A DNA stretch of 26,598 nucleotides from a virus: the IMG/VR virus record IMGVR_UViG_3300025102_000238, positions 1-26,598 of that record; one strand, 5' to 3'. Each line of letters starts with the position of its first letter. The stretch's first letter is position 1. This document shows, in pieces, positions 2,332 through 26,249 of the stretch. Under the pieces are notes generated by a model. That model did not search any database. It saw only the letters and a program-made list of their open reading frames with translations, and was not told the DNA's origin. A program made the position numbers and the translations under genes.

Positions 2332-2515
2332 AGATATACCAAAAATAGATTGTGTAACCACAACAACATACAGAAATACTAAAACAGGAGAAGTGTTTAA
2401 AGAGAAAGTAGAAGGACCTAATATTGTACAAGATGTTACAGTTCAAGTTACTAACAAAGGTCTTGAAGTATTTCAGAAAGTAATGAATCAAAAAAATGAA
2501 AAACCAAAACCCTAG
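2324..2515 (+). CDS. Conserved-type small hypothetical protein (63 aa)
   Basis: A 63-residue protein starting in an ATGGATAA overlap with the preceding gene and ending inside the next gene (20-base overlap). It contains two beta-like segments (CVTTTTYRNTKTGEVFKEK and IVQDVTVQVTNKGLEVF) and a basic, Lys-rich tail. No catalytic motif, signal or membrane helix is visible, and the function is unknown. The gene is retained because it fills the space between coupled genes in the same direction and its frame looks protein-like. Confidence 0.55.
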   Translation: MDKDIPKIDCVTTTTYRNTKTGEVFKEKVEGPNIVQDVTVQVTNKGLEVFQKVMNQKNEKPKP

Positions 2516-3434
2516 AGGCGGAACAGAATTACAATTTGAATATTTAAGAAAGCATGTTGAAACTAGCTTACTTAATCAAGTAGAAATTTGTACATCAATT
2601 CCTGGTAAAGTACCTTTACATTCAACTAAGTTAAATATTCTTTGGCAAAAAAATTCTTGGGATCAACCTAATTTACATCCGTGGTTTAAAGATAAATCTA
2701 ATCATAATAAATATGATTGGTATGTTTTTAATTCTAATTGGAATTTTGAACAGTTTACAAAAAGATTTGATTTACCTAGAGATAAATGTGTAGTTATTAA
2801 AAATGGTATTGAAGAAGTACAACCAGTTATAACACAATATAAAAAAGGTGATCCTATAAAAATAGTACATCACTGTACACCTTGGAGAGGATTAAGTGTA
2901 TTACTAGGTGCTATGCAATTAGTTAACAATCCATTAATTAGTTTAGATGTTTATTCTTCTTGTGAAGTATATGGAAAAGATTTTGCAGAAGCTAATGACG
3001 AATCGTATAAAGCTTTGTATGAACAAGCAAGACAACTTCCTAATGTAAATTACATTGGTTATAAACCAAATGAATATATCAAAGAAAATTTAAAAGATTA
3101 TAGAATGTTTGTATACCCAAGTATTTGGGAAGAAACGTCTTGTATATCATTATTAGAATCTATGTCAGCAGGTCTATATTGTATTACCACTAACTTTGGT
3201 GCCATATATGAAACAGGTGCTGAGTTTCCAATGTATGTACCTTATTCAAATAACTATAAAAGTTTAGCTAGAAAATTTGCTGGAGCTATAGAAACTGCTG
3301 CAAGCACGCTTCATGATTCAGGCATCCAGGATCATTTAAAGATGCAACAAAATTATGTAAATAGATTCTATGATTGGAAATCAAAAGGACAAGCATGGAC
3401 AAGATTTTTAAGAGGAGCACTAAATGCAAAATAA
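2496..3434 (+). CDS. GT4-like glycosyltransferase (GT-B fold)
   Basis: 312 residues, the size of a short group 1 glycosyltransferase. An N-terminal RGGTELQFEYL (residues 7-17) occupies the place of the Gly-rich acceptor loop. Residues 120-190 hold the second Rossmann-like domain (DPIKIVHHCTPWRGLSVLLG), and the donor-binding EX7E motif is clear at E213 and E221 within YPSIWEETSCISLLESMSAG. Enzymes of this family transfer a sugar from an activated donor with retention of configuration. The next gene, a GT-A type enzyme, overlaps by 11 bases, so the two are probably made together. There is no evident Shine-Dalgarno, and translation is likely coupled to the overlapping upstream ORF. Donor and acceptor are unknown: virion protein, host envelope glycan or DNA are all possible. 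Confidence 0.85.
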   Translation: MKNQNPRGGTELQFEYLRKHVETSLLNQVEICTSIPGKVPLHSTKLNILWQKNSWDQPNLHPWFKDKSNHNKYDWYVFNSNWNFEQFTKRFDLPRDKCVVIKNGIEEVQPVITQYKKGDPIKIVHHCTPWRGLSVLLGAMQLVNNPLISLDVYSSCEVYGKDFAEANDESYKALYEQARQLPNVNYIGYKPNEYIKENLKDYRMFVYPSIWEETSCISLLESMSAGLYCITTNFGAIYETGAEFPMYVPYSNNYKSLARKFAGAIETAASTLHDSGIQDHLKMQQNYVNRFYDWKSKGQAWTRFLRGALNAK

Positions 3435-4335
3435 TGAACCTATATGGTTTTCTGAAAAAAAGAAAACAACTGCTAATGAAGATACTTACCAAACAGAAAA
3501 AATAGAACAGGTAGACTCAAATGTTAGAACTGTTAACCTGGGTAATATTTTAGATAAACCAAAAGCAAAGATAATGGTTTGTACACCTTGTCATAGTGAA
3601 GTGTCTATGCACTATGCTCAAGCTGTATTAAAGTTTCAATTAGATTGTATGCAACAAGGTATACTAGTTAGTTTTACATTACTTAAATCATCTTTAGTTA
3701 CACAAGGTAGAAATTTATGTGTAGCAGAATTTTTAAATCATAAAGATCATTATGATTATTTATTGTTTATAGACTCAGACATAGATTTTAATTCTAAAAC
3801 TATATACAAAATGATTGGAGCAGATAAAGATATTATCTCGTGTCCTTATCCAATGAAAACATTTGATACAGATAAAATGTGGAGAAAAATGAAAGAAACT
3901 AATTTAGTTAAAACTCCTGACGATGTATTAAAAGCAGCTCATGTATTTCCAATTAAAATGGATAATGCAAATGAGATGACTATGGAAAATGGAGTCATAA
4001 AAGTAACTCATGCTCCTACAGGATGTATGTTAATTAAAAGACAAGTTATTGAAAAGATGATTAAACATCATCCAGAATTAGAGATATATCAACCAACAGT
4101 TATTAATGGTAAAGAAGTTAAAAAAGAAAACTTTTACAATTTGTTTGATACATTACATGATGTAAAAACTAAGAGATATTTTGGTGAAGATTTTGGTTTC
4201 TGTCAAAGATGGACAGATATGGGAGGAGAGATATACATCTATGCTATGGATAATATAACTCATGTTGGAGATCATCAATACTGTGGTCGATTTTTTGATC
4301 TATTAGAAAGTGCAAAATCTGTTGACGATAGTTGA
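3424..4335 (+). CDS. GT-A/GT2-like glycosyltransferase
   Basis: 303 residues with a polar N-terminal extension of about 45 residues, then a Rossmann-like core starting AKIMVCTPCHSEVSMHYA. The DXD-type metal/nucleotide motif is DSD at 117-119 in DYLLFIDSDIDF, preceded by GRNLCVAEF as in many phage GT-A enzymes. A late segment, ITHVGDHQYCGRFFD, could supply the metal-binding His found at the C-terminus of GT-A folds. An SD-like AGAGGAG lies about 8 bases before the ATG inside the upstream GT4 gene, which it overlaps by 11 bases. Probable role is transfer of a sugar or elongation of a short glycan made by the GT4 enzyme; donor and acceptor are unknown. Confidence 0.82.
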   Translation: MQNNEPIWFSEKKKTTANEDTYQTEKIEQVDSNVRTVNLGNILDKPKAKIMVCTPCHSEVSMHYAQAVLKFQLDCMQQGILVSFTLLKSSLVTQGRNLCVAEFLNHKDHYDYLLFIDSDIDFNSKTIYKMIGADKDIISCPYPMKTFDTDKMWRKMKETNLVKTPDDVLKAAHVFPIKMDNANEMTMENGVIKVTHAPTGCMLIKRQVIEKMIKHHPELEIYQPTVINGKEVKKENFYNLFDTLHDVKTKRYFGEDFGFCQRWTDMGGEIYIYAMDNITHVGDHQYCGRFFDLLESAKSVDDS

Positions 4336-4356
4336 AAAATCAAATAAAGTATTATA

Positions 4357-4402
4357 TTTACAGGTTTCTACGCCTGCTCAACGATATAATTATATATAAA
4401 AT
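4357..4402 (+). promoter_or_regulatory. Candidate promoter and small hairpin before the 292-aa virion gene
   Basis: This is one of the few gaps in the late cluster. It holds a perfect -10-like TATAAT at 4385-4390 inside a 12-base palindrome (ATATAATTATAT, 4384-4395), 13 bases before the ATG. No good -35 lies at standard spacing; TTTACA at 4357-4362 is 22 bases away. A weak 5-bp hairpin (CAGGT at 4361-4365 with GCCTG at 4372-4376) precedes it. It may be a promoter or a regulator-dependent late element; AT-richness alone could also produce the TATAAT. Confidence 0.35.
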
Positions 4403-5281
4403 ATGGCAATAAATAGATCATTAATGGAACGTCAATTACGTATGGGTGGAGGTATCATGAATGCCATGCCTAGACAACAATACGGTTTAGGTAGCTTAGT
4501 TAAAAAAGTTACCAAAGGCATTACAGGTGCTGTTAAAGGTGTAGCTAAAACTGTTAAGAAAAATCCAATGTTAGCTTTAGCAGCATTAAACTTTGCACCT
4601 ATGTTAGCTGGTGGTAAACCTTTTCTTGGTTTAGGTGGTTTACAAGGTAGTGTTAAAACATTTTTTGATGGTGCTAGTTTAATGCCTGGTTTTTTAAAAA
4701 ACGAAGGAACAAAAAAAATTGGTGAATCACTTCTCTCTAAAGGTAACTTAGGAATGATAGGTGTAAGTTTATTAGGTGGTGTTTTAGGTAGTTTGTCTCC
4801 AGAAGAAGAACAAGATATTACAGCAAACAGAAACGTTGGAGCGTTAGAAACAAAATTAAGACAAGCATATGAAAACCAAAGATTGTTTGAAAACGATCCA
4901 GAAGGATTAGAAAAACAAATAGCATCTGATTTATCTGAATATAATAGAGATATGACTAGAGGACAGATGGCTCATGGTGGTAGAGTTAACTATGCCATGG
5001 GTAGTCCAGAAGAAAATGCTATACAAGCAGCAGGTATCATGGATCTACCACTAAATGAAAACCCTGCGGGAGTTACAGAATTAGACCTTAGAGAAACAGG
5101 TGGATTTATTCCTCCAGTTGGTGTAAAAGAAAAGGCTGATGACATTCCTGCAATGTTATCAAACAATGAATTTGTATTTACGGCTGATGCTGTAAAAGAA
5201 TTTGGAGATGGCGACGTCAATAAAGGTGCACAACGTATGTACGCTATGATGAAACGATTAGAAAATGGAGGAAGAGCATAA
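4403..5281 (+). CDS. Virion-associated/ejection-type protein with GGGIM motif (292 aa)
   Basis: No enzyme domain is recognised. The N-terminus carries MGGGIMNAMPRQQYGLGS, followed by a basic, Ala/Gly/Val-rich amphipathic stretch (residues 30-60) and hydrophobic Gly/Leu segments (65-140) that could interact with membrane. A second motif block (HGGRVNYAMGS then AAGIMDLP) occurs near residues 190-215. The C-terminus GGFIPPVG...ADDIPAMLSNNEFVFTADAV is a segment I recognise from marine phage structural regions. The gene opens a series of large unknown proteins ending with a 1363-aa protein, consistent with internal or ejected virion proteins. No SD is seen before the ATG, and the preceding gap holds the candidate promoter. 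Confidence 0.65.
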   Translation: MAINRSLMERQLRMGGGIMNAMPRQQYGLGSLVKKVTKGITGAVKGVAKTVKKNPMLALAALNFAPMLAGGKPFLGLGGLQGSVKTFFDGASLMPGFLKNEGTKKIGESLLSKGNLGMIGVSLLGGVLGSLSPEEEQDITANRNVGALETKLRQAYENQRLFENDPEGLEKQIASDLSEYNRDMTRGQMAHGGRVNYAMGSPEENAIQAAGIMDLPLNENPAGVTELDLRETGGFIPPVGVKEKADDIPAMLSNNEFVFTADAVKEFGDGDVNKGAQRMYAMMKRLENGGRA

Positions 5282-6117
5282 TGGCTGAAACAATAACACA
5301 AATAAATCAACCACCTGAATTTATAGAGGCAGCTGCCAAACCTTATTTAGCACAATTACAATCAGCAGTTGGTGATTTTTCACAACAAGATTTATCTCAA
5401 ATTATGGGGCCACAGTTTGTTGCTGGTCAAGATCCATTACAACAACAAGCACAACAAACAGCACTAGCAGGTATTGGAGCCTATAGACCTTTTCTACAAT
5501 CAGCTGCAGCTTCTGCAGGGCCAACAGCTTATCAACAATTTATGTCTCCATATCAACAAGATGTAATTGATACAACATTACGAGAATTTGATACGCAAGC
5601 TGCAAAAGGTTTACCACAATTAGCAGCACAAGCAATTGGAGCGGGTGCATTTGGTGGAGGACGTGAAGGTGTTCAAAGAGCAGAATATCAACAAGCATCA
5701 GATAGAAATAGAGCTGCATTACTTGCACAATTACAACAATCAGGATTTTCACAAGCACAAAATTTAGCTCAACAAAATATTGCTAATCAATTACAATTAG
5801 GTGGAGCACAACAACAATTATTGGGTCAAGATGTTGGAGTTTTATCTACATTAGGTGGTATTAACCAAGCTCAAGAGCAAGCTCGATTAACTGCACAACA
5901 ACAGTTAGGACAAGCACAATCTCAACAAGGAATTCAAGCAGCACAGACTCTGGGTTCAGGCATCACGAGTTTAATTTCAGGATACCCTGGAGGAACACAA
6001 CAAACAGTTCAACCTACACCAGGTGCATTACAAACTGGATTAAGTGCAGCATCAACACTTGCTGGAATATACAGAGGATTTAATCCACCAGTTCAAGAAT
6101 ATAGACGAGTAGAATAA
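5281..6117 (+). CDS. Gln/Ala-rich virion-type protein (278 aa)
   Basis: A Gln- and Ala-dominated protein, largely alpha-helical by composition, with a central conserved-looking block (QQFMSPYQQDVIDTTLREFD followed by IGAGAFGGGREGVQRAEYQQ) that I recognise from tail/ejection clusters of marine and cyanobacterial phages. Residues 150-230 are low-complexity Gln repeats, probably coiled-coil or elongated helix. There is no signal or catalytic motif. TAATG overlap at the start, with GGAGGA about 8 bases upstream, supports the chosen start. A structural role as an internal/ejected or tail-associated protein is inferred from context. Confidence 0.65.
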   Translation: MAETITQINQPPEFIEAAAKPYLAQLQSAVGDFSQQDLSQIMGPQFVAGQDPLQQQAQQTALAGIGAYRPFLQSAAASAGPTAYQQFMSPYQQDVIDTTLREFDTQAAKGLPQLAAQAIGAGAFGGGREGVQRAEYQQASDRNRAALLAQLQQSGFSQAQNLAQQNIANQLQLGGAQQQLLGQDVGVLSTLGGINQAQEQARLTAQQQLGQAQSQQGIQAAQTLGSGITSLISGYPGGTQQTVQPTPGALQTGLSAASTLAGIYRGFNPPVQEYRRVE

Positions 6118-6968
6118 TGAGCAGAGTATTCAGAAGACCTATGTTTAGAAAAGGCGGTGAAGTCGGTGGTGGTATTATGACTGGTGTCATGAGAGAAAAC
6201 TATGAAACAGGAACAAAACCTTCTGAAAGAATAAACGAGGCAATGAAAGATTTTCAACAACCTGCATTTGATCCATTAGCACAATTATTAATTCAAGGTG
6301 GTCTAAGAGGTTTATCAGAAACAGGTGGCGGTAGTACGCTAGGTAATTTAGCAAAAGCTTTTCAAGATCCTGCAACGCAGTATTTTAAAGATGCTCAAAA
6401 AAGAAAAGATGTTGAAAGAGAAATAACCCTTGCAGGTGTTGAAGCAGACATTGGTGCAGATTTAGAGCAACAAAAAATAAATGCTCAAGCAGATCTTGCT
6501 AAATTAAATAGAGATTTTGAAGCTGCACAAGGTGATGCAGATAGACAAAATAAAATTGCAGTTAAGATTCAAGATGGTAAAAACAAAATAGCTGAACTAC
6601 AATTTAAAATAGATAACCCTGATGCAGATCCTGCTAAGAAAGGTGTTATTCCTTCTCCAGAAGCAAGAGTATTAGATTTAACTAAAACATTTTCAGAGAG
6701 TGATAACTTAGCCGTAGCACAAAATCCTAATTTAACAGCTAACAAACTTGTTAGATTTCAAGTAAACGCATCTCCAGAAATACAATCTAAATTTAAAGGT
6801 TTTGTAAACTATGGATATGATTCAAGTGGAAAGATTTCAAGAGTCGAACCTAAAGGACAAGCAGGAGATATATTCTATGATCCACAAACTGCAGATTTTT
6901 TAATACTTGATAATCAAGGTAATACATACAGACTAGATCCGTTAACATACGAAGCAGAAGAGAGGTAG
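6117..6968 (+). CDS. Virion-associated/ejection-type protein with GGGIM motif and coiled coil (283 aa)
   Basis: The start is a TAATG overlap. The first 40 residues contain FRRPMFRKGG, then VGGGIMTGVMRENYETGT, the same motif as in the 292-aa protein two genes upstream. Residues 95-170 are highly charged and Gln/Ala-rich (AGVEADIGADLEQQKINAQA), a likely coiled coil. The C-terminal 80 residues look globular and beta-rich (FKGFVNYGYDSSGKISRVEP). No enzyme motif is seen. Sharing a motif with a neighbour in the same cluster suggests a common partner or location in the particle, which is inference. Function unknown. Confidence 0.63.
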   Translation: MSRVFRRPMFRKGGEVGGGIMTGVMRENYETGTKPSERINEAMKDFQQPAFDPLAQLLIQGGLRGLSETGGGSTLGNLAKAFQDPATQYFKDAQKRKDVEREITLAGVEADIGADLEQQKINAQADLAKLNRDFEAAQGDADRQNKIAVKIQDGKNKIAELQFKIDNPDADPAKKGVIPSPEARVLDLTKTFSESDNLAVAQNPNLTANKLVRFQVNASPEIQSKFKGFVNYGYDSSGKISRVEPKGQAGDIFYDPQTADFLILDNQGNTYRLDPLTYEAEER

Positions 6969-15551: not shown

Positions 15552-17186
15552 ATGAAAGAATATATAGAATATTTTAGCGGACTTACTAGAAGTTATGGTG
15601 TCTGCAAAGTTGATGACGGTTACATAGATCCGGAAACAGGAAAGAAAAAATGGAAACATGAATGGACTAAAGAACCCGTCACTGATCAAGATTACTTAGA
15701 TCATTTAAAAGGAATTAAATCAATTGGAATACAACCATGTACCGATGAAGGTATGGCAAGGTTTGGTGCAATTGATGTGGATAAATATCCAATAGATAAA
15801 AAATTTTATCTTGATGTCATCCAAGATAAAGACCTACCAATAATACCTATATTATCAAAGAGTGGTGGTTTACATTTATATGTATTCACCACTCGGTTGG
15901 TTAGGGCAAAAGAAATAAGAAGTTTTTTAGAAGAGTTGTTAGTTCCATTTAAATTACCACATGCAACAGAAATATTTCCAAAACAAACACAATTGATATC
16001 AACAGATGGAACAGTATCAAACGGTAATTTTATAAACTTACCATACAATGGTAATGATAGAAAAGCATTGGATATAGACGGTAGTCTAATGCCATTTGAA
16101 AAATTTGTACAGACAGTTGGGTTAAATTTAGTTGATCCAAAAAATTTTAAAAAGATAAAAGAAGATATAATTTATTCAGAACTAAAAGGTGGTGGAGAAG
16201 AATTTGTAGATGGACCACCGTGTTTACAAAAATTAACTAAAGAAGTTATGGTATTTACAGACGGTAGAGATAGGTTTTTATATAATTACATGGTGTTTGC
16301 TAAGAAAAAATATCCAGACACTTGGCAAAAAATGATTGTAAAAGCAGGAAGAGATTATTTTAAATTTGATGAAAACTGGACAGATGATCATATTAAATCA
16401 AAAATAAAAAATTGGGAAAAGCAAAAGAAAGGTTTTACTTGCACAGATCCATTACTAGAACCAAACTGTATGAAAGCATTATGTGTAAAAAGAAAGTTTG
16501 GTGTGTTAGCAGGTGAAAAAACAAACTATCCAACATTAAGTAATCTACAAAAAATAAACATTAAACCTAATCCAGAGTGGAGAGTGACTGTAGAAAACTC
16601 TGAAGAGAATGAAACAATACAATTACATTGTAAAAATACATATAAATTAACTCAAGTACATGAATTTAAAACAGTTTTATTTGAACAAGCTTTGATTGTA
16701 GCACCATCAATTAAACAAGATCAGTTTGACGAAATATTAAAATCAATAAGTGGTAAAGAAAAAATAGAAATCATAGAACCTGCAGAAGGTACAAGTCCAA
16801 TTGATATACTTAAAAAATTATTAGAGAAACATATATACGGGGCTCAGGCAACAAACTATATGTCATTTGAAAGTGGTAGACCTTTATTAGAAGGTGAGTT
16901 TGCATGGTTTGTATTTGATAAATTCTTTGACAAATTAAAAAACGAAGAATGGAAATACGATGCACAGAAAACATCTTATATGATTTCACATGAACTATTT
17001 AACAATGAAGACAAAGATCAAAACAAAAGAGCTTTGTTTGGTAAACAAAAAAGATTCCCAGGCCAGGATGATGAAGGTAATTATTTTAAAGCAATAAGAA
17101 CTGCAAGAATACCTCTACATATCTTTGAAAAACCAGAAGAAGTAAAAGAAACTATAGAGATAGAGAGTCAAGATAATATAGTATGA
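15552..17186 (+). CDS. Archaeo-eukaryotic-type primase (TOTE-like AEP), phage primase
   Basis: 544 residues. The N-terminal domain shows AEP motifs: GAIDVD with D75 and D77 (metal-binding), then SKSGGLHLYVF at 102-112 (motif II, nucleotide-binding, S104/H108), EIFPKQ at 140-145, GNFINLPY at 158-165 and LDID at 173-176 (possible third acidic motif). This arrangement is that of the TOTE-conflict-system primase family. The C-terminal part has CMKALCVKRKFG and helical segments; no Walker A motif is present, so no fused helicase. It would synthesise primers for the PolA polymerase. The 3' end overlaps the SF1 helicase start by ATGA, implying coupled expression. A PrimPol-type activity is possible; this assignment comes from motif reading only. 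Confidence 0.75.
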   Translation: MKEYIEYFSGLTRSYGVCKVDDGYIDPETGKKKWKHEWTKEPVTDQDYLDHLKGIKSIGIQPCTDEGMARFGAIDVDKYPIDKKFYLDVIQDKDLPIIPILSKSGGLHLYVFTTRLVRAKEIRSFLEELLVPFKLPHATEIFPKQTQLISTDGTVSNGNFINLPYNGNDRKALDIDGSLMPFEKFVQTVGLNLVDPKNFKKIKEDIIYSELKGGGEEFVDGPPCLQKLTKEVMVFTDGRDRFLYNYMVFAKKKYPDTWQKMIVKAGRDYFKFDENWTDDHIKSKIKNWEKQKKGFTCTDPLLEPNCMKALCVKRKFGVLAGEKTNYPTLSNLQKINIKPNPEWRVTVENSEENETIQLHCKNTYKLTQVHEFKTVLFEQALIVAPSIKQDQFDEILKSISGKEKIEIIEPAEGTSPIDILKKLLEKHIYGAQATNYMSFESGRPLLEGEFAWFVFDKFFDKLKNEEWKYDAQKTSYMISHELFNNEDKDQNKRALFGKQKRFPGQDDEGNYFKAIRTARIPLHIFEKPEEVKETIEIESQDNIV

Positions 17187-20882: not shown

Positions 20883-21395
20883 ATGATTGAAAGATATGAT
20901 AATTTTTTGGAAAATAAAATACAAACTCAACTTTTTGATATGATTATGGCATCTAATTTTAGAATAGGGTGGAATGATAGTAGTGAAGTTCAGCACAGAA
21001 TGCATCCATGTCTACATAGCCCTTATACTTTTGAAGATGTTAAGAATCTAAAAATATTAGATGTAGTTTTAGATAAATTAAAAGATAAAAATATAACAAT
21101 AAATAATTATGATAGGTGTGTAATTAATCTAACTAAAAATATGGACGTTAATTTTATACATTGTCATCCCGATAAATTTGTATTTCTACATTATTCTAAT
21201 ATGACATGGAATACTGAATGGGGAGGTGAAACTGTTTTTTACAAAAATAATGGTAAAGATATTTTGGAGTCTAGTCCTTACGTACCTAACAGAGCTATTA
21301 TATTTGATGGAGAAATAAAACATACTATAAAAGCTCAAAATATTATGGGACCATCTTACAGATTTACTACATCATTGTTTTTTAATAAAGTGTAA
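20883..21395 (+). CDS. 2-oxoglutarate/Fe(II)-dependent oxygenase (prolyl-4-hydroxylase-like)
   Basis: 170 residues forming a compact double-stranded beta-helix type enzyme. The iron triad is H95-P96-D97 (HxD) and H147 in EIKHTIKA; R160 in SYRFTTS fits the 2-oxoglutarate-binding Arg. MTWNTEWGGETVFY (107-120) is the family's signature GGET block. These enzymes hydroxylate proteins, nucleobases or small molecules; the nearest type by eye is prolyl-4-hydroxylase-like, frequent in marine phages. The substrate is unknown. It begins 4 bases after the polymerase stop with an upstream GGGAG inside the polymerase gene, so expression with the replication genes is likely. Confidence 0.85.
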   Translation: MIERYDNFLENKIQTQLFDMIMASNFRIGWNDSSEVQHRMHPCLHSPYTFEDVKNLKILDVVLDKLKDKNITINNYDRCVINLTKNMDVNFIHCHPDKFVFLHYSNMTWNTEWGGETVFYKNNGKDILESSPYVPNRAIIFDGEIKHTIKAQNIMGPSYRFTTSLFFNKV

Positions 21396-22868: not shown

Positions 22869-22968
22869 AATTGCAAAAATGCTCCGTACATCACGCTTCA
22901 GGCAACTTGTAATTAAAAACAAAAAGAAATATAATAGAAAAAAAGACAAAATAATTAATGAATTATAA
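22831..22968 (+). CDS. Small basic protein (45 aa), overlapping gene
   Basis: A 45-codon ORF from ATG 22831 to TAA 22966-22968 overlaps the end of the upstream gene by 38 bases and the start of the methyltransferase gene (22958) by 11. The protein is highly basic: AKMLRTSRFRQLVIKNKKKY then NRKKDKII. The pattern R-T-x-R-(Y/F)-R-x-x-V-x-K-x-K-K-x-Y is one I associate with small conserved marine phage proteins. It fills the otherwise unexplained 22869-22957 gap. It could be a nucleic acid-binding protein. No domain name can be given. Confidence 0.6.
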   Translation: MVAKALKNSFSNKIAKMLRTSRFRQLVIKNKKKYNRKKDKIINEL

Positions 22969-23533
22969 AGACTTTAATAAGTCAGATGTATCTCCTCTTA
23001 TCTTATCTATTAATATGATGGGAGAAAATCTAGTTGGATTAGAACTAGGAGTTTTTAGAGGTGAAAGTTTTATGACTATTTTACATAACTGTGACAATGT
23101 AAAAAAATTAATAGGTATAGATCATTGGAAACCATACACTGATTTTATAAAAACAAATCCTGATGGTAAACCTGCTATGCATATAGATGCTTTTCAAGCT
23201 GAACTAAATAAAAGTGTAACTTTACTATTATGTAAACACAATACACCAAAAGGTAAACAAGTTTCTATTATTGAAAAAGATTCATTAGAAGCAGTAAAAG
23301 AAATCGAAGATGAGTCATTAGATTTTATTTTTTTTGACGCTATGTTAACAGAACAACAAACATTTAATGAAGCAATGGCTTATTATCCTAAAATTAAAAA
23401 AGGTGGTTATTTTACAGGACACGATAGTCAATGTGTTCAACAAGTTATGGAACCAATATTAAAAGTAAAAAAACATTTTGGTAATACAGAAAAGATTACA
23501 TCCTACGCTGATTGTTTTATTTTTAAAAAATGA
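22958..23533 (+). CDS. Class I SAM-dependent methyltransferase
   Basis: 191 residues with a Rossmann methyltransferase core: motif I GLELGVFRGES (27-37), an acidic residue at the end of beta 2 (D55 in LIGIDHW), SLDFIFFDAML as motif IV-like and IKKGGYFTGHDS as motif VI-like. This resembles the Methyltransf_24 type, which includes sugar and small-molecule O-methyltransferases. No DNA-recognition domain or DPPY/PC-type motif is present, so a DNA methylase is unlikely. It overlaps the sulfotransferase gene by ATGA. Together with sulfotransferase and carbamoyltransferase genes it suggests sugar or surface decoration; the acceptor is unknown. Confidence 0.78.
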   Translation: MNYKDFNKSDVSPLILSINMMGENLVGLELGVFRGESFMTILHNCDNVKKLIGIDHWKPYTDFIKTNPDGKPAMHIDAFQAELNKSVTLLLCKHNTPKGKQVSIIEKDSLEAVKEIEDESLDFIFFDAMLTEQQTFNEAMAYYPKIKKGGYFTGHDSQCVQQVMEPILKVKKHFGNTEKITSYADCFIFKK

Positions 23534-24108
23534 TTATAAACAACCAAACATATTTTATACACATACCTAGAACAGCAGGTAGATTTTTACATGAGTCATT
23601 AGAACTAAGTAATAATAAAGTTCAACTATTTAATTTTAATGTTTTATTCAAAGGAAAAGAAGCTCCTCATTTAACTTATCCTGAGTATTGTCAGTTCACT
23701 CATTATAGATCTTTTAAAAAATTTTGTATTGTAAGAGATCCTGTAGATAGATTTATTTCAATGGCCAAAGGAACTTGGATGTTAGATGAAGAAAAAATAA
23801 ATAAAATGTTTAGTAGTCAAAGTTGTTTTGATGAAGCAGTTAGTAATCTTTGCTTAAATGGTAATACTAATTGGTTTGTACCTCAAATAAATTTTATAGA
23901 TTATGATACTAAAATATGGAGATTTGAAGATAATTTTAATAGTGAATTTATTGACTGGTTATTATATAATTTTGATATTAAAATTACAAATTTAGCTGAC
24001 AAATTAAATTTTGTTAATTCTAATACAAATAATGTTACTTTAAATAATAAACAAATTGGTTATATTAAAAATTATTATTACAAGGATTATAAAATTTTAA
24101 ATTACTAA
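23530..24108 (+). CDS. PAPS-dependent sulfotransferase
   Basis: 192 residues. The 5'-phosphosulfate-binding loop is FIHIPRTAGRFLH (9-21) and the 3'-phosphate-binding site is FCIVRDPVDRFISM (65-78), with R69 and S77 in the expected spacing. This is the sulfotransferase family 2 type that sulfates glycans using PAPS supplied by the host. The gene is extremely AT-rich (20 G/C in 120 bases, 23941-24060). It overlaps the methyltransferase by ATGA and the endolysin gene by TAATG. Host PAPS must be available for function. Probable role: sulfation of a sugar on the virion or host surface. Confidence 0.85.
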   Translation: MIINNQTYFIHIPRTAGRFLHESLELSNNKVQLFNFNVLFKGKEAPHLTYPEYCQFTHYRSFKKFCIVRDPVDRFISMAKGTWMLDEEKINKMFSSQSCFDEAVSNLCLNGNTNWFVPQINFIDYDTKIWRFEDNFNSEFIDWLLYNFDIKITNLADKLNFVNSNTNNVTLNNKQIGYIKNYYYKDYKILNY

Positions 24109-24584
24109 TGAACCTTTCACGAAACTTCACGCTTCAGGAATTAATTAAATCAGACACTGCTGTCAGGTTGGATATCAATAACAATCCAAACTCAGGCCAG
24201 ATAGAAAAATTAAAAGCATTGTGTGAAAATATTTTACAGCCGGTACGTGATCATTTTGGCAGGGTCAAGGTGACTAGCGGGTTCCGTAGTGAGCAGCTGT
24301 GCCTAAAAATAGGTAGTTCGATCAACAGCCAACATGCAAAAGCTGAGGCCGCAGACTTCGAATGTATGGGAACCGACAATGCTGAATTAGCTGATTGGAT
24401 TTATATGAACCTAGAATTTGATCAATTGATCCTCGAGTTCTACACTCCTGGCGAACCCAACTCGGGATGGATACACTGTAGTTATACATCTGACCAACCA
24501 CGAAAACAATTTTTACACGCATACAAATCAGAAGGTAAAACAAAATATAAACCTGTGATTGGAAAGGCAAAAGATTTAACATAA
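24108..24584 (+). CDS. M15-type zinc peptidase endolysin
   Basis: 158 residues, a typical stand-alone Peptidase_M15_3 domain. Zn ligands: H76 and D83 in SQHAKAEAADFE, and H123 in WIHCSY; TSGFRS (56-61) is the family's conserved loop. It would cleave peptidoglycan stem peptides (D-Ala-D-Ala or L-Ala-D-Glu type) in the periplasm at lysis. No signal peptide is seen, so release would require a holin; two candidates are at 11965 and 22264. GC content is unusually high for this genome (62 of 120 bases in 24241-24360). TAATG overlap with the sulfotransferase gene. Confidence 0.9.
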   Translation: MNLSRNFTLQELIKSDTAVRLDINNNPNSGQIEKLKALCENILQPVRDHFGRVKVTSGFRSEQLCLKIGSSINSQHAKAEAADFECMGTDNAELADWIYMNLEFDQLILEFYTPGEPNSGWIHCSYTSDQPRKQFLHAYKSEGKTKYKPVIGKAKDLT

Positions 24585-24593
24585 GAAAGATAT

Positions 24594-25511
24594 ATGAGAA
24601 AGGTATTAGGGGTAAATATTTCACATAATTGTTCGTTTGCTTATTTTGAAGATAAGGTTTTAAAAGAATATTATGAAGAAGATAGATTTAATAAAATTAA
24701 AGCATACATTCCAGATGAAAATGAACCTGAGTATGAGTATGAAGTCTTAAAAAAATTTAAAAATATTACTTTTGATACAGTGGTTTTTTCTACTCATGAC
24801 AGAGGATATATACAGTTAGACCAACCAATTGTAGATAATTGTCTTAATCAATTAAAATACAACGAATATCAATTTAATAATAGAGAGCATCACATTTATC
24901 ACGCTGCCTGTGGTTATTATTTTAGTAAATTTGATGATGCTATTGCAGTTGTTTCAGATGGAGGAGGAGAAACAATTATTTCTAATCAGTTTAAAACATT
25001 ACAAAGTATTTTTACAATAGATAAAAAAGAGGTTTACCCATTATTTAAACATGCATCAAACGGAAGATATGATTATTTTAATAATTTTGTTGATGGATCA
25101 GAGCTACATCAAGTTAATGATATAGATTTTTTAATAACAAATAGAAAAGTAGGTGGTTTAAAATATTTAAATTATTTAAAAGACGCTGGTTTTGAATATG
25201 GAGAAGAAGGACAAATGATGGGCATGGCTGCTTACATAAATGAAATAACTACTTTAGATAAAGAAGTTTTAAAGATTGCAAACAAAGCTCAAAAAGAAAC
25301 ACTGCAAGAAGCAATAGAATTAATTTATAAAGTAAAAGAATACAGTGAATGTAAGAATATTATATTATCAGGTGGATATCATTTGAACTGTTCAAATAAT
25401 TTTAAACTTGTAAAACACTTTCCTGAGTATAATTTTTTTGTAGATCCAATACCTTACGATGGAGGAACAGCAGTAGGAGCTGCTTATCTTTATGAAAATT
25501 ATAAAAAGTAA
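24594..25511 (+). CDS. Carbamoyltransferase, N-terminal (kinase-like) domain, NodU/CmcH family
   Basis: 305 residues match the N-terminal TsaD/ASKHA-like part of NodU/CmcH O-carbamoyltransferases: GVNISHNCSFAYFED (6-20), EEDRFNKIKAY (28-38), HHIYHAACGYYF (99-110) with the metal-type His cluster, SDGGGE (121-126), EYGEEGQMMGMAAY and ILSGGYHLNCS. The family transfers a carbamoyl group from carbamoyl phosphate and ATP to a sugar hydroxyl. Complete enzymes are about 520-570 aa with a C-terminal domain; here that domain is encoded by the next, overlapping ORF in the +1 frame. Ends with TAA at 25509-25511. Confidence 0.83.
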   Translation: MRKVLGVNISHNCSFAYFEDKVLKEYYEEDRFNKIKAYIPDENEPEYEYEVLKKFKNITFDTVVFSTHDRGYIQLDQPIVDNCLNQLKYNEYQFNNREHHIYHAACGYYFSKFDDAIAVVSDGGGETIISNQFKTLQSIFTIDKKEVYPLFKHASNGRYDYFNNFVDGSELHQVNDIDFLITNRKVGGLKYLNYLKDAGFEYGEEGQMMGMAAYINEITTLDKEVLKIANKAQKETLQEAIELIYKVKEYSECKNIILSGGYHLNCSNNFKLVKHFPEYNFFVDPIPYDGGTAVGAAYLYENYKK

Positions 25512-26019
25512 AGAAGAAACAGTAGATATATTATTACAACAGGAATTAGTTGTAATATTTCAAGGACACTCTGAATGGGGTGCAAGAGCATTAGGAAATA
25601 GATCTATGTTATTTGATCCACGAAATAAAGATGCAAAAGAAATAGTAAATAAAATAAAAGGTAGACAATGGTGGAGACCTACTGCAGCTACAATTTTACA
25701 TGAACACAAAGATGATTACTTAGAAATGCATGGATTAGATGAGTCACCTTATATGACTTTTGCAATTGATGCTAAACAAAAAGCAAGAGATGAAGTACCA
25801 GCGTGTGTACATGTAGATCAAACATGTAGATTTCAAACTTTGAAAAGAGAACAAAATCCAAATTATTATGATCTTATAAAATTATTTTATGATAAAACAG
25901 GAGTGCCTATTTTACTTAATACTTCTTTTAATTTAAAAGGTTTTCCAATAGTTGAAACCTTAGAAGACGCCATATTGACTTTGGAAAAGAGTGATATAAA
26001 GTATTTATATAAGCCATGA
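25492..26019 (+). CDS. Carbamoyltransferase, C-terminal domain (split gene, +1 frame)
   Basis: 175 residues corresponding to the C-terminal domain of the NodU/CmcH family: FQGHSEWGARALGNRS (23-38), FDPRNKDAKEIVNKIKGRQW, RPTAATILHE and GVPILLNTSFNLKGFPIVET. It begins at an ATG 20 bases before the upstream stop, with an AGGAG 12 bases further upstream; alternatively a +1 shift near the AAG TAA junction would join the two into one protein of about 475 aa. Two interacting polypeptides can form an active enzyme, so gene fission is plausible, but a sequencing or assembly base error cannot be excluded. A sugar-carbamoylating role is inferred from the family. Confidence 0.83.
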   Translation: MKIIKSKEETVDILLQQELVVIFQGHSEWGARALGNRSMLFDPRNKDAKEIVNKIKGRQWWRPTAATILHEHKDDYLEMHGLDESPYMTFAIDAKQKARDEVPACVHVDQTCRFQTLKREQNPNYYDLIKLFYDKTGVPILLNTSFNLKGFPIVETLEDAILTLEKSDIKYLYKP

Positions 26020-26249
26020 GTATAATAGATAAAAAAGCAATAGAAGCGTTTAAAAATATAGATACTGTTCATGGTCTATGTGAAGAGTGTCAGGAAGAAG
26101 CTATCTTAGTAGCTATAGTTTCAGAATTTTATAGATGCACTAATTGTGGTCATGATACCAAACAACATATTAATGGACGTATTAGATATTTAAGGTTGAA
26201 TGAATCTGATAAAAAATGGATAAAAGAAAATGGCCAAAAAAAGTTTTAA
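26016..26249 (+). CDS. Zinc-ribbon protein (77 aa)
   Basis: Two CxxC knuckles are spaced like a zinc ribbon: C22/C25 in LCEECQ and C41/C44 in RCTNCGHD, followed by KQHINGRIRYLRL. The linker EEAILVAIVSEFY is hydrophobic, forming the ribbon strands. I recognise this as a common small marine phage protein. Role unknown: nucleic acid or protein binding, perhaps transcription control. ATGA-type overlap with the carbamoyltransferase C-terminal gene. Confidence 0.72.
   Translation: MSIIDKKAIEAFKNIDTVHGLCEECQEEAILVAIVSEFYRCTNCGHDTKQHINGRIRYLRLNESDKKWIKENGQKKF

Follow-up and report, generated by a model that had tools for sequence, protein, structure and literature searches.

The two overlapping carbamoyltransferase ORFs of the ocean virus record IMGVR_UViG_3300025102_000238 very probably encode two subunits of one TobZ/GdmN-type O-carbamoyltransferase, carried as two genes, with the second (C) starting at its own ATG within the 3' end of the first (N). 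The window analyzed here is that whole virus record of 26,598 bases; end repeats are absent, so it may be a fragment. The two half-genes share 20 nt, C is read in the +1 frame relative to N, and the junction reads TAT AAA AAG TAA A (Table 1), just as the first-pass annotation had described the split. Many related viruses also carry the halves as separate genes, and in more than one order, which argues for a real two-part enzyme rather than a broken or frame-shifted gene. The YrdC-like C protein would convert carbamoyl phosphate and ATP into carbamoyl-adenylate, and the Kae1-like, metal-binding N protein would take the carbamoyl group and put it on an acceptor hydroxyl. Most likely, ribosomes would terminate N and restart at the C start, a coupling proposed to yield N and C in similar amounts. 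The chemistry, the restart and the contact between the two subunits are inferred.

Table 1. Features of the window at and near the carbamoyltransferase genes
Feature	Position	Strand	Basis
Peptidase M15 endolysin, directly upstream neighbor	24108..24584	+	PF08291, phrog_894; family in 16/63 window-type loci listed
N gene, Kae1-like transferase subunit (probable), 305 aa	24594..25511	+	PF02543, AlphaFold2, Foldseek, motif alignment to TobZ/NovN, ligand conservation
AGGAG, 12 nt 5' of ATG 25492, perhaps a weak ribosome-binding site; belongs to the conserved Val-Gly-Ala codons as well	25475..25479	+	Motif count in representatives
N/C overlap, 20 nt, C in +1 frame; ATG kept, stop position varies in relatives	25492..25511	+	Junction comparison
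C gene, YrdC-like subunit (probable), 175 aa, own ATG	25492..26019	+	PF16861, AlphaFold2, Foldseek, phrog_20469, residue invariance
Next ORF, 77 aa, weak zinc-ribbon-like match; ATG overlaps C stop by 4 nt (ATGA)	26016..26249	+	ORF list, Pfam
2OG-Fe(II) oxygenase-like ORF	20883..21395	+	PF13640 3.8e-4, 21.8 bits, below the cut-off of 27

Domains and conserved residues of the two ORFs

In Pfam, N is a Carbam_trans_N protein (PF02543, 2.4e-11) and C a Carbam_trans_C protein (PF16861, 5.3e-57). The profile phrog_1601 (528 positions) spans both ORFs, with N at positions 2-322 and C at 357-520, and C also matches phrog_20469, a C-only profile of 181 positions. Structurally, the AlphaFold2 model of N (pLDDT 94.4, 36 sequences) shows the protein stopping just past its final helix (residues 289-303), and its top Foldseek matches are TobZ (TM-score 0.66-0.70 by query, rmsd 5-8), NovN, GdmN and VtdB, followed by TsaD/Kae1. 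Residues H11, H99, H103, D122 and D289 align on the TobZ and NovN motifs; H99, H103, D122 and D289 are the putative metal ligands and H11 the putative general base. For GdmN, the sections of PMC9633730 available to us report iron bound by H133, H137, D156 and D333, with H27 as the likely base. The four putative ligands are kept in 28/28 N rows of the window clade (its 29 representatives minus L067, which is too short). Across the wider set, H11 is not always present; loci L084 and L097 have N or K at this position, and the residue varies among fused proteins from cells. As to the split point, N ends 16 residues past D289, and the Kae1-like domain of GdmN ends at L351, 18 residues past D333, according to the same sections of PMC9633730.

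The AlphaFold2 model of C (pLDDT 91.8, 42 sequences) opens with a strand at residues 2-4, and mean pLDDT over residues 1-10 is 97. Foldseek retrieves GdmN and TobZ (TM-score 0.86-0.88 by query), with TsaC next. Residues K56 and S145, invariant in the 42 sequences, correspond to TobZ K443 and S530 (by alignment positions and our own arithmetic), which are the residues altered in solved TobZ variants according to the structure titles. C is a likely producer of carbamoyl-adenylate. Unlike the TsaC of t6A synthesis, C belongs to PF16861; its PF01300 match (E 0.081) reaches 12.8 bits against a cut-off of 25.1, so that C falls outside PF01300, the family expected of the adenylating protein in the t6A TsaC/TsaD system.

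Both signatures of class III O-carbamoyltransferases are present: N supplies a Kae1-like domain with four putative metal ligands (two His, two Asp), and C a PF16861-type YrdC-like domain with conserved Lys and Ser. In the class III enzymes described in the accessible sections of PMC9633730, both domains lie in one chain. Here they do not, and the pair is therefore filed as a split variant rather than an ordinary member of the class.

Gene architectures in viruses and cells

The first-pass annotation had called for a comparison with related phage copies, and this reveals many viruses that are also split, as well as fused ones. A scan of IMG/VR viral contigs with the C half covered 80 of the 125 loci found, with both halves on the contig in 79 (L077, whose contig begins inside C, was left out). 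Among these 79 listed loci, 76 carry N followed by C with a +1 overlap. L062 keeps this order, but its C sits in the third frame and overlaps N by the 4 nt of an ATGA; in L074 and L075 the order is reversed, and none of the 79 is fused. The reversed pair L074 and L075 falls inside the window clade, with two bases between the stop of C and the ATG of N. Viral contigs were also scanned with three other queries (the C of S-RIM44, the C of AG-345-D19 and the N of L074), which brought in fused and other split forms; the whole fused viral relatives measure ~510-640 codons from stop to stop, in line with the earlier expectation of one protein of more than 500 aa.

Half-profiles run on 214 sequences among the matches listed found 143 with separate halves, 63 fused, two fused with another hit (L097 and L149, the extra hit of L149 being weak and on the opposite strand), five with N only and one with C only; all six single-half sequences lie at contig edges. 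Cellular genomes present a uniform picture: the 80 listed bacterial and archaeal loci comprise 77 fused genes, one fused gene with extra hits and two cut at a contig edge, and no split form occurs among the 78 uncut loci in the matches listed. On this set of cellular loci, inheritance of the split form from cells was rejected. Altogether, the 286 both-halves sequences among the matches listed divide into 141 fused, 112 N-C, 24 C-N, seven N-C-N and two fused-plus-N (one of which, L215, is a cellular locus whose second N match is weak), counts that include duplicate contigs, come from scans limited to 80 loci each with queries favoring split forms, and are not frequencies in nature. A literature search within one open library found no published description of split forms; two-gene forms already exist as GenBank annotation (S-RIM44, Sf-FP1).

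The N-C-N trios (L138, L146, L147, L150-L153) hold one C gene between two different, diverged N genes, both of them PF02543 in L150. Toward the first N, the overlap is 29 nt with C in the +1 frame in 6/6 distinct junctions; toward the second N, it is 4 nt in the three loci inspected. The four metal ligands are kept in both N genes, in 4/4 representatives each. Two further loci point to how a fused gene may have become split. L097 (2289-5388) carries ThyX, a fused gene and then a second N gene; L084 (AG-345-D19; 4306-6406), with a similar neighborhood, carries ThyX, a C gene that retains a linker-like start, and an N gene. In the trees, the N of L084 is sister to the second N of L097 (support 100), and the C domains of the two loci are likewise sisters (98). 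On the simplest reading, L084 derives from an arrangement like that of L097 by loss of the first N domain, which would likely represent a step from fused to split.

A looser relation, in which the two proteins are not one enzyme, C makes carbamoyl-adenylate as a free intermediate or for other partners, and N takes it up or acts without a fixed complex, is improbable: N adjoins C in 79/79 listed both-halves loci, and no locus with C alone was seen except at a contig edge, among loci that were fetched by these genes. Speaking for it are the trios, where a single C sits between two N genes that both keep all four ligands, and the stand-alone YrdC and Kae1 proteins, which function in t6A synthesis according to published abstracts. 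Two subunits of one O-carbamoyltransferase is the reading retained below.

Junction and start of the C gene

Two routes to the C protein had been proposed, its own ATG at 25492 or a +1 slip at AAG-T-AAA, and the comparison of junctions supports the first. Among the matches listed, 119 N-C and N-C-N loci yielded 66 distinct junction sequences, and an overlapping ATG is kept in all of them (66/66) while the N stop moves. The overlap spans 4-38 nt, most often 20 nt (22 distinct junctions) or 17 nt (18), followed by 23 nt (8), 14 nt (7), 29 nt (one N-C plus six trio), 38 nt (2), 35 nt (1) and 4 nt (1). The last N codon and stop come in 18 kinds among the 66, and in the 65 +1-frame junctions the N codon starting with the G of the ATG is GAA, GCA, GTT, GAG or GAT. 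The kept feature at the junction is the start, neither the stop nor a slip site.

In the last 14 N codons, 0.59 +1-frame ATGs are expected, and at least one is present in 29/29 window-clade representatives, an excess that does not translate into a probability because the rows are related. The +1-frame ATG of L062 is a leftover at which C no longer starts. There (L062:1260-1330), the C start region seems to be tandemly duplicated, with a third-frame C start at an ATGA and the old +1 ATG a few codons before a stop. Within 22 nt upstream of the C ATG, AGGAG occurs in 17/29 representatives, only GGAG or AGGA in three and none of these in nine; a ribosome-binding site as a general rule for the C start was therefore rejected. 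At the AGGAG site, the Gly codon is GGA in 20/29 representatives versus 220/496 elsewhere in N, again in related rows.

A programmed +1 frameshift near AAG-T-AAA, joining N and C into one protein, is very unlikely. It would suit the A-rich junction and the overlapping +1 frame of C in 76/79 loci among the matches listed, but the variable overlap and the many different codons preceding the stop leave neither the slip site nor the stop context fixed, L062 uses the third frame, and C precedes N in L074/L075 and in the S-RIM44 type. The joined product would also be unlike unsplit relatives. Between the last metal Asp and RALG it would contain 42 residues, 17 contributed by N and 25 by C. Even the shortest linker among the 100 fused relatives measured exceeds this by 20 residues (62-85, median 79, in 29 viral proteins; 77-129, median 82, in 71 cellular ones). 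Moreover, translation would resume at C residue 7, losing residues 1-6 and with them, according to the model, the strand of residues 2-4. The LGPxY linker motif was discarded as a diagnostic, its simple pattern matching only 31/100 fused proteins, and linker length was relied on instead.

That the junction reflects an error in sequencing or assembly, or that the locus is a fused gene recently turned pseudogene, has next to no probability despite the A-rich junction and the existence of fused relatives, since the junction is identical in L001 and L002, 76/79 listed loci share the arrangement, and median dN/dS is 0.17 and 0.11 for the two halves. L001 and L002 are contigs under two different IMG metagenome ids, with N proteins 100% and 98.7% and C proteins 100% and 99.4% identical to those of the window; L001 differs by a silent base near the junction and so is not the same record. 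This recurrence shows that the window junction is not an assembly error, and it disposes of the one-base error in the A-run that would have left a normal single ORF. Purifying selection acts on both halves: computed over 67 distinct sequences per half and only for pairs of 80-98% DNA identity, median pairwise dN/dS is 0.173 for N (76 pairs) and 0.114 for C (1175 pairs). Together with the ligands kept in all window-clade N rows, these values bear out the first-pass argument that both halves keep their motifs and point to function over decay.

Phylogeny of separate and fused forms

The C tree, built from 148 representatives of 282 sequences, contains four changes between fused and separate forms. 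The window clade (support 100) comprises 30 representatives, 29 N-C and one C-N. AU tests on a 70-row C subset, with W for the window type and R for the S-RIM44 type, rejected neither a single clade of all separate forms (p 0.68) nor W+R (0.79) nor W+trio (0.84), and the constrained trees scored above the free tree. In a 55-row N subset, W and R lie on one side of a branch (99), and neither W+R+trio (p 0.27) nor all separate forms together (p 0.11) was rejected. The placement of the S-RIM44 type thus differs, the N tree joining W and R (99) and the free C tree not. Between one and four origins of the split forms are compatible with these trees and tests, one shared origin included.

Comparison with known systems

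The class III enzymes TobZ, GdmN, NovN and VtdB (PF02543 and PF16861) share with the window pair both predicted folds and the metal ligands, as well as the residues likely to act as general base and in adenylation. Unlike these single chains, the window form consists of two genes and lacks the usual inter-domain linker. The phage 5-hydroxymethylcytosine (5hmC) carbamoyltransferase belongs to the same Pfam families as the window pair; in the portions of PMC8670742 available, however, it is one 63-kDa protein, on a contig with a thymidylate synthase homologue, and none was found in the window. Cyanophages S-RIM44 and Sf-FP1 also carry separate genes for the two halves, but their order is ThyX, C, N, with a linker-like tail on N, whereas N precedes C in the window; their proteins are 53-54% (C) and 29-31% (N) identical to those of the window. 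TsaC/YrdC and TsaD/Kae1 of t6A synthesis, the next-best fold matches, likewise divide adenylate formation and transfer between separate proteins.

The cyanophage carbamoyltransferases of 1524-1803 bp given in PMC3037559 have the size of fused genes, the accessible parts of PMC10436341 and PMC9146016 treat the cyanophage gene as one of pyrimidine synthesis, and the word 'carbamoyl' is absent from the main text of PMC9599517, on uncultured pelagiphages.

Genomic context and possible acceptors

Neither the window nor 17 related records, most of which are probably fragments, yielded a thymidylate synthase (PF00303); ThyX was not found in the window or in eight window-type records searched, nor dCMP deaminase in 11 window-type records. 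Other split types differ in their neighbors. ThyX adjoins the pair in S-RIM44, Sf-FP1, AG-345-D19 and L097, and a ThyX match occurs in 1/5 trio records, far from the trio. dCMP deaminase is present in 5/5 trio records searched (of seven trio loci listed), ~1 kb upstream by coordinates, and the L150 copy was confirmed with Pfam. These ThyX and dCMP deaminase neighbors fit a modification of nucleobases or nucleotides, as in the 5hmC carbamoyltransferase of PMC8670742, in the portions available.

2OG-like ORFs lie within 4.5 kb of 57/63 window-type loci among the matches listed, compared with 12/47 fused viral, 1/13 S-RIM44-type, 0/5 trio and 0/74 cellular loci, a count biased by profiles that were built from window-type neighbors. 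A hydroxylation followed by carbamoylation would fit such neighbors, with the same bias in the count and with 2OG-Fe(II) oxygenases being common in pelagiphages according to the available text of PMC9599517.

Downstream of C, the ATGA overlap with the next ORF means that the string of overlapping genes continues; the family of this ORF lies downstream in 14/63 window-type loci among the matches listed. Beside the endolysin, at 22958-24108, the window encodes a Methyltransf_24-type methyltransferase and a weak sulfotransferase-like ORF, whose family is present in 5/63 window-type loci listed. Elsewhere, the segment at 2496-4335, downstream of a virion structural gene, encodes a glycosyltransferase (PF00534) and a phrog_1574 protein; the window also contains an SNF2-type helicase (PF00176; 12222-13658), which is the sole minus-strand ORF above 140 aa, and a primase (15552-17186) matching the AEP-TOTE profile (PF22548) and phrog_21866. 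The window DNA polymerase is 75% identical to its counterpart in Pelagibacter phage HTVC027P. Of the 57,595 bases of that phage, 20,162 were covered; they include the region after the shared M15 peptidase and have no carbamoyltransferase annotation.

Implications

Split genes of this kind form an annotation trap, as they are easily called frameshifted or duplicate carbamoyltransferases. The N-C, C-N, fused-plus-N and N-C-N gene sets raise the tentative idea, somewhat short of even chances, that marine phages have made the carbamoyltransferase modular, with one adenylate-making subunit that several transfer subunits could share, or with which they could be paired anew, to act on different acceptors. 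Of these sets, the searched trios lie with a dCMP deaminase, and the three searched C-N GenBank records have ThyX adjoining the pair. In the sources consulted, the characterized enzymes of the family pass carbamoyl-adenylate between two domains of a single chain. With natural split forms, above all the trios, in which a single activating gene accompanies two transfer genes, passage of this intermediate between proteins becomes testable, as does the sharing of the activating part.
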